Shown piece by piece: positions 4,949 through 13,709 of a DNA stretch of 64,000 nt. The notes beneath the pieces are model-generated. The model saw only the letters and a program-made list of their open reading frames with translations. It had not been told where the DNA came from and ran no database searches. Numbering within the stretch: the stretch's first letter is position 1; every line of letters starts with the position of its first letter. A program made the translations under genes and the position numbers. Origin of the DNA: Candidatus Binataceae bacterium (lineage in GTDB: Bacteria; Desulfobacterota; Binatia; Binatales; Binataceae). The stretch lies in the NCBI GenBank assembly GCA_035650475.1, contig DASRHP010000009.1, forward strand, positions 672,545 to 736,544, given 5' to 3'.

Positions 4949-6085
4949 CTAGAGCTCGGCGATATTGTGGCCGAGCCGGGCGAGGTCGCCGAGCGACGCC
5001 GGCTCAGTGCCGAGGTCAGGCGCGGCAAACAGACGCATCTCGGCCGGCACGCCCGCGCGCAGCGATACGAGCGCCGCCGTCTCGCGTTCCTTGAGCGCGG
5101 CAAACTCGTGCGCCGCGCGCGCCAGCTTGCGCCGCAGCGCCGGGCCGACCGCGGCGCGGGCAATCTCCTCGGCGACGGGCATCGCAGGCAGCGTGCGATT
5201 GACGATCACGGCCCGAGTCGCGATACCGGCGGCGCTGAGCGCGGCGATGAACTCGTGGGCCTGGTCGATACGCTCGGGCTCGGCGGTGGTGACCACGACC
5301 ACCGCAGTGTCGGCCGCGACCAGCAGCATCTGCGCGCGAGCGGCGCGTTCGGCGAAGCCGGCATACATCCCGTCGAAGCTGCGCACGAAGGTCTGGACGT
5401 CGCCCAGCAGGTGAAGGCCGGTGATCCGATCAAAGGCGGCGAGCACCGCGCGCGCGGCCAAATCGACCACGCCGAGCCCGCGGCGCATCCCGCCGCCGAG
5501 CAGACTGACGGCGCGCGAGTTTAAGAGCTCGAGCAGGCGGCGGGGCGCATCGAGAAAATCGAGCGCCTCGCGCGCAGGCGGGGTGTCGAGCACCACCAGG
5601 TCGGTCGAAGGCTGGTCGCTGAGCTCGAGCAGCCGCTCCATCGCCATGTAGTCGCCGACGCCGGCAAGCGCCTGAGAGAGATTGCCGTAGATGCGGTTGT
5701 GAAGGATCGCCTGCGCGGCGGCGGGCGAGGGGGCGTGGCGGGTGACCAGCGCGTCGAAGGTGTGCTTGGGGTCGAGGCGGAGCGCGCGCAGGCGGCCGGC
5801 GCGCCGCGCCGGCCGCCTGCGCGCGCTCCGGGCTGCGGCGCCCGCCTCCGCCCTGGCCTCTTCCAGCGCAACCTCGCGCGGCTCGGCGGCGTGGCGCGGA
5901 TCGACGCCGAGTGCGTCGAGCAGCCGCGGCGCCGGATCGACGGTCATCACGTCCACCCGCCGGCCGCCGAGCGCGGCGCGCAGCGCAAGCGTAGCGCTCA
6001 TTGTCGTCTTGCCCACGCCGCCCGGGCCGAGGCAAACCAGCAGGCGCGCGGCGAGCAGGTCGGAAACCGAGCCGGCGGTGCTCAT
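4949..6085 (-). CDS. ArsA-like (GET3/MinD-related) ATPase, paralogue 1
   Basis: The deviant P-loop LGPGGVGKTTMSATLAL lies near the N-terminus, followed by VMTVDPAPRLLDALG, the switch segment LVVLDTPPAREALDFL, and VVVTTAEPERIDQAHEFIAAL with VIVNRTLP. These are landmarks of the ArsA/GET3 anion-pump-like ATPase family. Members dimerise and couple ATP hydrolysis to metalloid export or to protein targeting and partitioning; no arsenite-binding cysteine cluster is visible, so arsenic transport is not supported. ATG 6085 was chosen because it shares one base with the upstream gene's TGA and because sequence beyond it is not family-like. Residues ~87-103 lie in a 47-base palindrome (5781-5827). Confidence 0.88.
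   Translation of the reverse strand: MSTAGSVSDLLAARLLVCLGPGGVGKTTMSATLALRAALGGRRVDVMTVDPAPRLLDALGVDPRHAAEPREVALEEARAEAGAAARSARRRPARRAGRLRALRLDPKHTFDALVTRHAPSPAAAQAILHNRIYGNLSQALAGVGDYMAMERLLELSDQPSTDLVVLDTPPAREALDFLDAPRRLLELLNSRAVSLLGGGMRRGLGVVDLAARAVLAAFDRITGLHLLGDVQTFVRSFDGMYAGFAERAARAQMLLVAADTAVVVVTTAEPERIDQAHEFIAALSAAGIATRAVIVNRTLPAMPVAEEIARAAVGPALRRKLARAAHEFAALKERETAALVSLRAGVPAEMRLFAAPDLGTEPASLGDLARLGHNIAEL
5781..5827. repeat. 47-base GC palindrome inside the ArsA-like gene
   Basis: Bases 5781-5803 are the exact reverse complement of 5805-5827, with one base (5804) between them. Each arm is 23 bases and almost pure G and C, beginning AGCGCGCGCAGG. Because of the symmetry, both strands encode nearly the same Arg/Ala-rich peptide (SARRRPARRAGRLRALR). 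It falls just before the conserved LDPKHTFDALVTRH segment of the ATPase and keeps the frame open. It could be a natural hairpin, a small palindromic insertion or an assembly artefact. Confidence 0.85.
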
Positions 6086-6972
6086 CAATCGTTGAGCTGC
6101 GCGCCGAGCGCGCGGCTCAACTCCTCCACCTCGGCCCGGCCCATCGCCGGACTGAAGAGCATCGGCAGTTCGATCACACGCAGATGCGCGCGGGCGGCCG
6201 CGCGGCGCGCCCGCGCCGCGGGGCCGCCCGCGCCGCCGCGCCATGCGGCGAGCCTGCGGCACGCCGGATGCGCGTCGAGGGTGCGCAACTCCGCCGCGCT
6301 GAACAGCGGTTGCGGTACTGCGTTCACGACCGCCGCCGCGAGGCTGACCCCCAGGCGGTCGCGCAGGATGCCGGCCGCCTCCAGCGCCTCGCGCAGCGCC
6401 AACTCTTGCGCGCTGAGCGTCAGCACGACCGCGAAACGGGCGGGGTCGGCGAGGAAATCCTCGACGCCCGCGGCGAGCCGGTTGAGCGTGCCCAGCGGCG
6501 CTATACGCTTGACGCCGCCTGCGACCGAGAGCAGCTCCAGCGTGCTGCCGGTGGCGGGCGCGTCAACCACGGCGTAGCGGTCCTCCAGCGCGGCCTGTCC
6601 GGCGATGAGTCGCAGCCGCTCCAGCATCAGGAACGCCTCCAAACCGGGCAATGCGGCGCTGACGTAGCCGAACGTGCGGCTGTTGAGCATCCGGCGCGCG
6701 ATCGTCTTGAGCGGCACGATTCGCTCGATGAAGGCTTCGAGCTCGCTGCGCGCGCTGAGCGACATCGTTTCGAGATCGGGAATTGCGCCCGCCGCGGAAC
6801 CGCCGTTGCCGCCGGGCGCGATTCCGAGCATCCGCGCCGCCCACATCCGCTGGTCAAGATCGACCAGCACCGTGGGCCGGCGGCGCGTAAGGGCGAGCGC
6901 AAGCGATGCGGCCACCGCGCTTTTGCCGGTGCCGCCCTTACCGGTGACCAGGATTAGCCGGGCAAGCGCCAT
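6085..6972 (-). CDS. ArsA-like (GET3/MinD-related) ATPase, paralogue 2
   Basis: A 295-residue P-loop ATPase starting MALARLILVTGKGGTGKSAVAASLAL, the deviant Walker A of the ArsA/MinD class. It continues with TVLVDLDQRMWAARMLG, YAVVDAPATGSTLELLSV and a central FAVVLTLSAQELALREAL segment with a following VVNAVPQPLF. It is shorter than the neighbouring paralogue and differs in sequence, so the pair may form a heterodimer. Its TGA overlaps the ATG of the downstream paralogue by one base, which implies translational coupling. Substrate or cargo is unknown; there is no arsR, arsB or arsenite-binding cysteine motif nearby. Confidence 0.87.
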   Translation of the reverse strand: MALARLILVTGKGGTGKSAVAASLALALTRRRPTVLVDLDQRMWAARMLGIAPGGNGGSAAGAIPDLETMSLSARSELEAFIERIVPLKTIARRMLNSRTFGYVSAALPGLEAFLMLERLRLIAGQAALEDRYAVVDAPATGSTLELLSVAGGVKRIAPLGTLNRLAAGVEDFLADPARFAVVLTLSAQELALREALEAAGILRDRLGVSLAAAVVNAVPQPLFSAAELRTLDAHPACRRLAAWRGGAGGPAARARRAAARAHLRVIELPMLFSPAMGRAEVEELSRALGAQLND

Positions 6973-11074: not shown

Positions 11075-12115
11075 GTGTCAACGATGCTCAGGACCGCGCT
11101 GGTAAGCGACCGCCGCTATCTCAGGCATTTCGCCGGCCGCAGCCATCCCGAGCGCCCGCAGCGCGTCGAGGCGATGATCGAAATGATCGAGCATCTCGGC
11201 CGCTCCGCGCTGCTGTCGCTTGCCCCGCGCGAAGCAACTCCTGAGGAGCTCGCACTCTGTCACGACCCCGCCTACATCGCCGCCGTCGAGCGCACCGCGG
11301 CGGTCGCGCGCTACGACTTCGACCCCGACACCCATACCTGTCCCGATTCCTACCGCACCGCCGTGCTCGCCGCAGGCGGCGTTTTGACCGCGGTCGAGGC
11401 GGTGATGGACGGTGCGGCGGATAACGCCTTCGCGATTGTGCGTCCGCCGGGCCATCACGCGCTCGCCCGGCGCGCGATGGGCTTTTGCCTGTTCAACAAC
11501 GTCGCGATCGCGGCACGCTGGCTCCTCCAGCGACGCGGTCTTGGGCGCGTGGCCGTGGTCGATTGGGACGTCCATCACGGCAACGGCATCCAGGACATTT
11601 TCTACGATTCGCGAGCGGTCCTCTATTTCTCGACCCATCAATTTCCCTTCTATCCGGGCACCGGGTCGCTCGACGAGGTAGGCGTGGGCGAAGGGGCAGG
11701 CTTCACGGTCAACGTGCCGATGCCCGCGACGTTTGGCGACGAAGAATACCTGCGCATCTTTGATGCGGTACTCGCGCCGATCCTGCGCCAGTACCGCCCC
11801 GAGTTCATCCTGATCTCATCGGGCTTCGATGCGCACCATCGCGATCCGCTGGGCGGGATGCGGGTGACGGAGGCGGGGTTTGCCGCGATGGCGCGACGGG
11901 TCAAACGCTTGGCGGCCGAGTGCTGTAAGGGCCGGATGGTCGCGGCGCTGGAGGGCGGCTACGATCTCCAGGCGCTCGCGGATTCGGGACGCATGGTGAT
12001 CGAGGAGCTGGGCCGTGAAGCCGACGAGCCAGACAAGCCCACAGCCGACGGCGAGCGCGTGATCCCGATAGTCGAACGCTCGCACTATTTCCTGGCGCCG
12101 TACTGGAAGTTCTGA
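11075..12115 (+). CDS. histone deacetylase/acetylpolyamine amidohydrolase family protein
   Basis: 346 residues covering the arginase/deacetylase fold. Visible landmarks are SHPERPQRV, AIVRPPGHHALARRAMGFC with the tandem catalytic histidines, VAVVDWDVHHGNGIQDIFY and LISSGFDAHHRDPLGG with the Asp/His zinc ligands, and ALEGGYDLQALADS. Bacterial members remove acetyl groups from polyamines, other small molecules or proteins; the substrate cannot be told here. GTG 11075 is the outer start and ATG 11084 a good alternative. It is divergent from the tat genes. Confidence 0.9.
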   Translation: MSTMLRTALVSDRRYLRHFAGRSHPERPQRVEAMIEMIEHLGRSALLSLAPREATPEELALCHDPAYIAAVERTAAVARYDFDPDTHTCPDSYRTAVLAAGGVLTAVEAVMDGAADNAFAIVRPPGHHALARRAMGFCLFNNVAIAARWLLQRRGLGRVAVVDWDVHHGNGIQDIFYDSRAVLYFSTHQFPFYPGTGSLDEVGVGEGAGFTVNVPMPATFGDEEYLRIFDAVLAPILRQYRPEFILISSGFDAHHRDPLGGMRVTEAGFAAMARRVKRLAAECCKGRMVAALEGGYDLQALADSGRMVIEELGREADEPDKPTADGERVIPIVERSHYFLAPYWKF

Positions 12116-12179
12116 CCGGCGCTTCCGGTCGCATAGGGTCGCTTGTCGCAATCTCGCGGGAGGGGCAAAACTCACCAGC

Positions 12180-13709
12180 GTGTCGGGTGGGAATTCCGAG
12201 GAGTCAAGTAGCGGGCTGCGCCTGGTCGCGCTGGGCGTGTCCAAACCGCAGGCATTTGCGCTGCGTGCGCGGCGAATCGCGATCGGCACCGCGCCGGAGA
12301 ACGACCTGCGGCCCGACGATGCCACAGTGTCGCGCCGCCACGCCGTGCTGAAGCGCCGATGGGGCCGATGGCGCGTCGTCGATCTTGGCTCAAGCAACGG
12401 AACCTGGATCAACGGACGGCGCACCGATGCGTCGTCGCCGACGCCTGTAAAGCGCGGCGACGAGCTGCGCTTTGGCAACGCGCGCTTCGGGTTTGTCGCG
12501 GCAGGCGACGACCCGGCAAAGGTGGGCGTAAGCGCAGGGCGGCGCGCCGCGGCGCCCCCGCGCCGGCCGTCGCGGCGAGCGATCGCTGTCGGCGTAGTGA
12601 TGCTGTTTGCCACCGGCTTTGGCGTAACCCAGTACCTTGTGAACTTCGACCGCCTCGAGCAGGCGGCTGGGGTGGGCGCGCCGGGCTCGCCCGTCGCGCC
12701 CGCCGCACCTACCAGTGCGCGCGCGACTCCGGCGGTGGCCGCCGCCGGCCCCGCGCTGGGCCCAGCGGCTGGCGACGGACGAGCCACGGGGGCGGCACAC
12801 GGCCGCGCAACGCCTGCGCCGACCAGCGGCGCGCACAGCGCGCCCGCAGCCGCCGCGGACGGCGTCGAAGGTGCGGGCCTCGCATGGCTTGCGCGCATCA
12901 ACCAGTACCGCGCGATGGTGAAGCTCGGCCCGGTCCGCGACGATCCCGCGCTCAGCGAGGGCGAACGCAACCATACGCGCTACCTGGTCGAGAATTACGG
13001 CGCGCTTATCCGAAAGGGTGTCGGCATGGGCGCCGCGATGCATAGCGAGGATGCCTTCAAGCCTGGCTATACGCCTGTGGGGATGCGTGCCGCGCAGGAC
13101 AGCGATATCGACGAATGGGCGGGACCGCAGCCGCCGCCCTCGACGTACTGGGCGATCGACGATTGGATGACCGGTGCATTTCACCGCCTGAACATCCTCA
13201 ACCCCAGGCTGCGCCAAGTGGCCTACGGCCAGTCATGCGAAGGCGGTACGTGTGCGGCCGCGCTCAATGTCATCAGCGGCGCGGAGATGCCGACCCTTGC
13301 AGGCCTGCCGCTGGCGACGCCGATCATGTTTCCGCCGCCCCACTCGACGGTCGGTCTCGGCCCGTTATGGGGCGAATGGCCCGACCCGAAGGGTCCGTGC
13401 AGCGGCTACCGAGCGCCCGTCGGGTTGCCGATAACCCTTTCCCTGGGACTGATGGTCGATGCGCATCTGACCGAGTACAAACTCACCCGCGCGGGCGAGG
13501 CCCCAATCGACCTCGAAGCGTGCGGCTTCGATGCAGCTAGCTACGCGAATTCCGATCCATCGGCTCAGGAGCGCGGGCGCGGTGTGCTGCACGATTTCGG
13601 CGCCGTCGCCGTCATTCCGCGCGTGCCGCTAGAGAAGCGCTCCAGCTACACGGTTTCTATGACAGTCAACGGACGCAATTACACCTGGACGTTCTCAACC
13701 GCGCCCTAA
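12180..13709 (+). CDS. FHA domain - transmembrane segment - CAP/SCP-like domain fusion protein
   Basis: An N-terminal FHA domain (residues ~10-110) shows RRIAIGTAPENDLRPDD, TVSRRHAVL and VDLGSSNGTWING, the phosphothreonine-binding loops. One membrane helix follows (~133-155, AIAVGVVMLFATGFGVTQYL), then a long Ala/Pro/Gly-rich linker. An extracytoplasmic part starts at WLARINQYRAMVKLGPVRDD and HTRYLVENYG, matching the CAP/SCP/PR-1 fold start, with MHSEDAF and DDWMTGAFHRLNIL. A beta-rich tail ends the protein. The topology implies a cytoplasmic phosphopeptide reader joined to an outer CAP domain. No Ser/Thr kinase is in the window. GTG 12180 is the start, with an AGGGG sequence upstream. Confidence 0.82.
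   Translation: MSGGNSEESSSGLRLVALGVSKPQAFALRARRIAIGTAPENDLRPDDATVSRRHAVLKRRWGRWRVVDLGSSNGTWINGRRTDASSPTPVKRGDELRFGNARFGFVAAGDDPAKVGVSAGRRAAAPPRRPSRRAIAVGVVMLFATGFGVTQYLVNFDRLEQAAGVGAPGSPVAPAAPTSARATPAVAAAGPALGPAAGDGRATGAAHGRATPAPTSGAHSAPAAAADGVEGAGLAWLARINQYRAMVKLGPVRDDPALSEGERNHTRYLVENYGALIRKGVGMGAAMHSEDAFKPGYTPVGMRAAQDSDIDEWAGPQPPPSTYWAIDDWMTGAFHRLNILNPRLRQVAYGQSCEGGTCAAALNVISGAEMPTLAGLPLATPIMFPPPHSTVGLGPLWGEWPDPKGPCSGYRAPVGLPITLSLGLMVDAHLTEYKLTRAGEAPIDLEACGFDAASYANSDPSAQERGRGVLHDFGAVAVIPRVPLEKRSSYTVSMTVNGRNYTWTFSTAP

Follow-up and report, generated by a model that had tools for sequence, protein, structure and literature searches.

An FHA domain lacking the hallmark arginine is fused through a predicted membrane helix to a CAP–CopC module in related bacterial genomes

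SctD combines an FHA domain, a helix and a periplasmic part, in this order. To our knowledge, work on how Ser/Thr phosphorylation inside diderm bacteria reaches the periplasm has mostly dealt with kinases that have their sensing part outside the cell and their target inside it. As described for MupFHA, five hallmark residues characterize FHA domains, i.e. Gly, Arg, Ser, His and Asn, and the Arg41Ala exchange severely disrupted binding to the kinase (PMC4238996). The DgcB FHA–phosphopeptide structure presented in PMC6733907 shows R76 and N97 touching the peptide, with R76 holding two phosphate oxygens. In the type VI pair Fha–TssL, the FHA domain docks on a phosphorylated Thr of a protein in the inner membrane, and for Agrobacterium Fha it is reported in the same paper that Arg30Ala lowered secretion and that Arg30Ala together with Ser46Ala abolished it (PMC3953482). 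Judging from the MupFHA and Agrobacterium mutants, loss of the hallmark Arg weakens recognition and need not end it.

The gene analysed here lies in a stretch of 64 000 nucleotides (the window) and occupies positions 12180–13709 of the + strand as a single ORF of 509 aa with a GTG start. The N-terminus resembles the VSGS start of the ortholog L063 from a genome of the same genus (G002), and a purine-rich stretch 14 bases upstream of the putative start (12158–12165, +) is, by its sequence, a possible ribosome-binding site. The product, an FHA–helix–CAP–CopC-like protein (FHA-CAP in the following), comprises an FHA domain (residues 12–108; 12213–12503; Pfam, model and GarA match), a predicted membrane helix (residues 132–162 with a hydrophobic core at 135–153; 12573–12665; model, hydropathy and charge), an Ala/Pro/Thr-rich disordered linker (residues 165–230; 12672–12869; pLDDT <50 for 165–232), a CAP domain (residues 231–368; 12870–13283; Pfam and fold) and a CopC/Ig-like β-sandwich (residues 376–507; 13305–13700; fold), all on the + strand. 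Both motifs by which the initial annotation had recognized an N-terminal FHA domain, SRRHA and LGSSNGTW, are present in the ORF, and the Pfam models for FHA (PF00498, residues 34–99, 65 bits, cut-off 20.7, E 8.2e-18) and CAP (PF00188, residues 237–355, 25.4 bits, cut-off 21.1, E 2.8e-5) both score above their cut-offs; in the relative P0002, the CAP model reaches 39 bits. In a full-length AlphaFold2 model built with 24 relatives, the FHA, CAP and C-terminal blocks mostly have pLDDT >85 and the helix 132–162 about 69–78, while the periplasmic part modelled by itself gives a mean pLDDT of 95.1. The initial annotation had named a non-CAP fold of residues 235–360 as evidence against its own reading, and the predicted fold of this stretch is CAP. 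It had, however, overlooked that only residues 231–368 are the CAP domain and that residues ~376–507 form a separate CopC/Ig-like sandwich. A search of genome contigs with P0001 only gave no confirmed match.

Several features indicate how the protein is probably arranged in the membrane. The 15 residues preceding the helix core carry a net charge of +6 and the 15 following it of −1, and all four cysteines of the protein (353, 358, 407 and 448) lie C-terminal of the helix; the presence of LptF/LptG genes in the window further points to a diderm. Based on this charge bias, the cysteine placement and the diderm envelope, the expected layout is an FHA domain in the cytoplasm and a CAP–CopC module in the periplasm, connected through the inner membrane. 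The original proposal of an FHA domain joined through one membrane helix to an extracytoplasmic CAP domain is therefore borne out as a predicted topology. For the relatives, the hydropathy scan chose wrong segments in L072 and L169.

Of the 24 family genomes, including the window's own, 19 carry FHA and CAP in a single ORF, so this layout is not due to chance, and the domain order recurs in related genomes. As regards the other five, no CAP match was found in G001, the contig of G002 ends after the FHA domain, G004 has a CAP domain without FHA, and G006 and G020, which belong to one genus, have kept helix–CAP and lack FHA. The named full-length relatives, among the matches listed in a pattern-based comparison, are metagenome-assembled genomes (MAGs) labelled Candidatus Binataceae, Proteobacteria and Acidobacteriaceae; by these names, the family is probably Binataceae (Binatota). 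The genomes examined are largely MAGs.

Outside the family the architecture is rare in phylum-scale searches, whose absences are soft, in agreement with the initial view that it is uncommon. When at most four first-look candidates were scored per genome, which makes absences soft, 12 of 395 genomes of the phylum matched at E 1e-15, of which eight belong to this family, while in the remaining four the match is confined to CAP–CopC. With at most five first-look candidates scored per genome and equally soft absences, 58 of 301 Chloroflexota genomes matched at E 1e-10, with no row spanning FHA and CAP among the matches listed, and the full protein was found in only one of 297 Acidobacteriota genomes, a MAG (G421) in which it forms a pair with a redoxin gene. 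This single Acidobacteriota MAG (one of 100 relatives) may owe the FHA-CAP/redoxin pair to transfer or to mis-binning, two origins that cannot be distinguished; base composition is indecisive (0.557 for the G421 stretch vs 0.579–0.674 for the measured Binataceae stretches). The parts are of known kinds. No report of an FHA–CAP or FHA–redoxin fusion was found in the literature searched (open-licence PMC papers).

The FHA fold is GarA-like (6i2q_B; Z 15.6, rmsd 1.6 over 96 residues), and the site is altered at one place. Among the 27 FHA-CAP rows, which include the contig-end-cut L063 and three near-copies from one genus (L168, L170 and L175) and are otherwise about 40–45 % identical as proteins, Gly36 and His54 are found in all 27, and Ser51, Arg52 (12330–12335, +) and Asn73 (12396–12398, +; all three placed by the row alignment) in 26 each. 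The place of the hallmark Arg is residue 37, i.e. the second residue of Gly36-Thr37 (12285–12290, +) according to the row alignment and the alignment to GarA. Here, Arg occurs in none of the 27 rows, the residue being Ser in 22, Ala in three and Thr in two, one of them the window protein itself. The hallmark Arg is present in 11 of the 13 other FHA rows, nearly all of which come from the same genomes as FHA-CAP. FHA-CAP thus retains four of the five residues of the canonical phosphothreonine-FHA set, the Arg being gone, and its Arg52 and Asn73 correspond, by spacing, to DgcB R76 and N97.

Since the hallmark Arg is missing, canonical phosphothreonine binding cannot be assumed for FHA-CAP; the domain may nevertheless still work like a canonical phosphothreonine-binding FHA. 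The initial annotation had regarded it as a phosphothreonine reader and had named a loss of the phosphothreonine-binding residues as evidence against its reading. Such a loss is seen in part: Ser51, Arg52 and Asn73 are nearly invariant, and the phosphate-contact Arg is replaced by Ser, Ala or Thr in 27/27 rows, leaving phosphothreonine reading as a possibility. Given the four kept hallmark residues and Arg52, phosphothreonine is the likeliest ligand, and given the missing Arg, a retuned or phosphate-independent ligand is nearly as likely.

Natural variants provide additional evidence on this site. In an FHA-CAP paralog clade of six rows (one a fragment), Ser51, Arg52 and Asn73 have been lost together (0/6 each), and Gly36, His54, Asn78 and Asp94 are retained (6/6 each). 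The FHA tree, which omits L164 and L195, groups five of these rows together (100/100), and the CAP tree does so for the four that are part of alignment A3 (100/100); these four also lack the Cys353/Cys358 pair. The joint loss indicates that the three residues are a unit under its own selection. This bears on an alternative that we consider only slightly less likely than the docking proposed below, namely that the FHA domain has been retuned to an unphosphorylated partner or to itself and would organize a membrane complex around CAP–CopC as a phosphate-independent scaffold, comparable to secretion-system FHA domains without a phosphothreonine site. Such a scaffold is consistent with the hallmark Arg being gone in all FHA-CAP rows as well as in the FHA-redoxin rows described below, and with the score of PF16697, which models the cytoplasmic domain of SctD (53.8 bits vs a cut-off of 33.2); EssC offers a precedent, since it is described as lacking the phosphothreonine residues yet needing its FHA part for a stable, functional protein (PMC4925161). 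However, four of the five hallmark residues and Arg52 are nearly invariant, a conservation that would be superfluous in a pure scaffold, and in the paralog clade the site decays as a whole.

We tentatively favour, at clearly less than even chances, a docking of the FHA domain inside the cell, probably on phosphothreonine, which would place the periplasmic CAP–CopC module. The FHA domain would bind a partner at the inner membrane, and Ser51, Arg52 and Asn73 would be its main grip on this partner, for which a phosphothreonine peptide from a Ser/Thr kinase or a kinase substrate is the likeliest candidate. Once docked, it would place the CAP–CopC module at the docking site, or keep it ready there, and in some relatives a sister protein with the same FHA–helix unit might position a TlpA-like redoxin there as well. 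The domains and folds, the sequence pattern and conservation of the site and the adjoining redoxin gene are observed, whereas topology, binding, dependence on phosphate and the role of CAP–CopC are inferred. Docking is supported by the joint ORF in 19 of 24 genomes, the GarA-like fold, the kept site residues, the peptide contacts made by the DgcB equivalents of Arg52 and Asn73, the joint loss in the paralog clade, the redoxin that the same unit bears in the sister protein and the Ser/Thr kinases encoded in all 24 family genomes; against it stand the missing hallmark Arg (0/27 FHA-CAP and 0/5 FHA-redoxin rows), whose exchange disrupted kinase binding in MupFHA, the lack of a linked kinase and the CAP genes without FHA in G006 and G020.

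As to the kinase, the initial annotation had advised looking for a linked one, and a search for Pkinase PF00069 in the 24 family genomes found none near FHA-CAP. The two share a contig in two of the 24 genomes, many of whose contigs are short, i.e. 67 kb apart in G015 and 339 kb apart in the window's genome.

Other FHA genes of these genomes show different arrangements. In G006, whose CAP gene has no FHA, a Ser/Thr kinase gene adjoins two genes whose products combine FHA, a hydrophobic helix and a C-terminal part that no Pfam model matches (L157:1498–6995, contig C22), and in the window's genome a kinase gene adjoins a protein bearing two FHA domains (L165:547–4070, contig C12). The latter genome also encodes a protein of reversed order, in which a vWA-type domain towards the N-terminus precedes an FHA domain at the C-terminus that has the usual Gly-Arg (L159:1674–3314, contig C1); L183, L193 and L194 contain FHA rows resembling it.

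Among solved structures, the CAP fold matches a Bacillus SCP protein (4ifa; Z 11.8, rmsd 2.7 over 108 residues), GAPR-1 (4aiw; Z 11.0) and yeast Pry1 (5ete; Z 10.7); a PDB sequence search with the periplasmic alignment profile gave two weak matches (E 0.29 and 0.41) and no CAP chain. The classical CAP cavity contains two His and two Glu, as summarized in PMC7340583. Both site histidines are present, His288 in 36/41 and His335 in 38/41 rows. The site was located by motif and by a MAFFT alignment with the other CAP protein of this genome, in which His288 is shifted by a few columns. The Glu place of the GEN(I/V) motif is occupied by Ser, Gly or Ala in 40/41 rows (Ser308 in the window protein) and followed by Asp309 in 30/41, and near Trp329, where the second site Glu was sought in the sequences, the 41-row alignment has no invariant Glu. 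Glu290, two residues past His288, and His265 are invariant (41/41). Therefore, the domain has a CAP fold, and its site, as read from the alignment, is rearranged. Not included in alignment A3 are L177, L176 and L178, which are long, L081, which is longer, and the short L071, L073, L075, L074 and L195, and the comparison of relatives omits four loci with an internal stop (L041, L064, L069 and L074). In the window's genome, the sole other CAP match (L001:1501–1863, contig C8) shows the classical motifs GEN and SPGHR and, at its N-terminus, a hydrophobic segment.

The C-terminal sandwich matches CopC/PcoC (1ix2_B; Z 9.9, rmsd 2.4 over 90 residues), a broad fold class, as LdtMt2 Ig-type domains also reach Z 8.5. 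Cys407 (13398–13400, +) and Cys448 (13521–13523, +) are each invariant in 41/41 rows, and Cys353 and Cys358, located on a β-hairpin (13236–13253, +), are kept in 24/25 and 25/25 FHA-CAP rows, respectively. The invariant Cys407 and Cys448, together with the sterol binding described for some CAP proteins (PMC7340583), the predicted topology and the fact that the FHA–helix unit bears differing periplasmic modules (CAP and redoxin), would fit an inward sensor, in which CAP–CopC binds an envelope ligand or reports a redox or lipid state and the FHA domain relays this to a cytoplasmic partner. We nonetheless consider such a sensor improbable, as the disordered linker that separates CAP from the helix by ~65 residues is ill suited to rigid transmission, and the FHA domain would be the sole possible output domain, with no linked regulator.

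How far the CAP–CopC module depends on FHA can be judged from the genomes in which the two are separated. In the CAP tree, the helix–CAP proteins of G006 and G020 are surrounded by rows that carry FHA, at a support of 93/93, which is below the starred level; this suggests that FHA was lost in these two genomes, and genes of this kind show that the CAP part can do without it. Such genes, the wide occurrence of CAP–CopC without FHA among the matches listed and the paralog clade with its decayed FHA site all lend something to the idea that an FHA–helix gene and the gene of a secreted CAP–CopC protein became joined, with FHA serving mainly as a membrane anchor and hardly in signalling. We rate this as very unlikely, because the helix alone would suffice as an anchor and yet the FHA site is nearly invariant over 27 rows that are only about 40–45 % identical.

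A second kind of protein with the same order bears a redoxin instead of CAP–CopC. Four FHA–helix–redoxin proteins were found (L041, L043, L070 and L079), each with an AhpC-TSA/Redoxin domain containing CxxC, and L071 (G018, 613–1587) is a fifth by its FHA domain alone, the redoxin being replaced by a transposase domain (PF01527), so that this gene looks broken by an insertion sequence. The redoxin-sister gene starts seven (L043) and 36 bases (L079) past the FHA-CAP stop, in L041 it lies downstream of an FHA-CAP copy bearing a premature stop, L071 lies downstream of an FHA-CAP gene cut by the contig end, and L070 is solitary. The sister thus adjoins FHA-CAP in three genomes, or four if the copy with the insertion sequence is counted. 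All five FHA-redoxin rows have Ser at the place of residue 37, and their FHA domains form one clade (96/88). The FHA tree lends support neither for nor against a nesting of FHA-redoxin within FHA-CAP.

Considering that FHA-CAP and FHA-redoxin have in common the altered site, a helix that is similar by eye and often the neighbourhood, it is tempting to speculate, although we regard this as rather unlikely, that they represent a Binataceae adaptor family, i.e. one FHA–helix unit with a site retuned from Arg to Ser and swapped periplasmic modules (CAP–CopC or a TlpA-like redoxin), through which one cytoplasmic mark or partner would place several periplasmic activities together. If true, an event inside the cell would address enzymes outside. 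The conserved FHA–helix–periplasmic adaptor offers a testable system for the direction opposite to that of outside-sensing kinases, since FHA is intact, decayed or absent in its natural variants and a redoxin sister is at hand, and the Arg-to-Ser change common to both adaptor kinds is a clean case for asking which ligand an FHA domain binds when the phosphate-contact Arg is gone.

A histone-deacetylase-family gene (11075–12115, +; Pfam) lies directly upstream of FHA-CAP, separated by 64 bases, and is a frequent neighbour, FHA-CAP following it directly at eight of nine examined loci with a deacetylase gene. Since other FHA-CAP copies sit away from a deacetylase, this adjacency is probably an inherited location and not a pathway. 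Downstream follow genes for a luciferase-like monooxygenase, an alpha/beta hydrolase and a cyclophilin and a PtsP-like gene. As for anti-phage defence, PADLOC returned no match for P0001 or P0003. Elsewhere in the window, two neighbouring ArsA-type ATPase genes (4949–6262 and 6085–6972, −) have overlapping called ORFs, the downstream gene probably beginning at a later codon than the one called.

Compared with the described systems, FHA-CAP resembles each of them in part. With GarA, OdhI and DgcB it has in common the FHA fold (Z 15.6 for GarA, 15.5 for DgcB 6hbz_A) and the kept SRxH and NG loops, but those proteins are soluble or have FHA attached to different modules, the residue following Gly is Thr in the window protein and Arg in GarA, and the NCBIfam GarA-type models score far below their cut-offs (57.7 of 200 and 54.5 of 125 bits). 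Assignment to the named equivalogs GarA, FhaB, TagH, GltG or SctD was rejected, as every NCBIfam model remained under its cut-off. The likeness to SctD lies in the FHA–helix–periplasmic order and the PF16697 match, whereas TIGR02500 gives 17.2 bits vs 86, below SctD membership, and the periplasmic part of SctD is ring-building where that of the window protein is CAP–CopC; no secretion-apparatus component was found among the scanned window proteins.

The secreted CAP–CopC proteins of Chloroflexota are 33–37 % identical to the window protein over ~270 residues (L080 and L081), and L080, the single Chloroflexota row in A3, also has Cys407, Cys448, His265 and Glu290. In contrast to FHA-CAP, these proteins have no FHA domain and, by eye, a signal-peptide-like N-terminus, and the Cys353–Cys358 pair is missing in L080. 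The FHA–helix–redoxin proteins are similar in the Arg-to-Ser change (5/5), the GF(G/A)xxQY helix motif (by eye) and their neighbouring genes, and differ in the periplasmic AhpC-TSA/Redoxin domain with CxxC and in the separate FHA clade. With type VI Fha the likeness is limited to the FHA domain (TIGR03354, 29.4 of 120.25 bits). Still, Fha–TssL represents the kind of docking that we propose for FHA-CAP, with the difference that there an FHA protein is brought to a secretion apparatus, whereas in FHA-CAP the FHA domain is fused to a periplasmic module.
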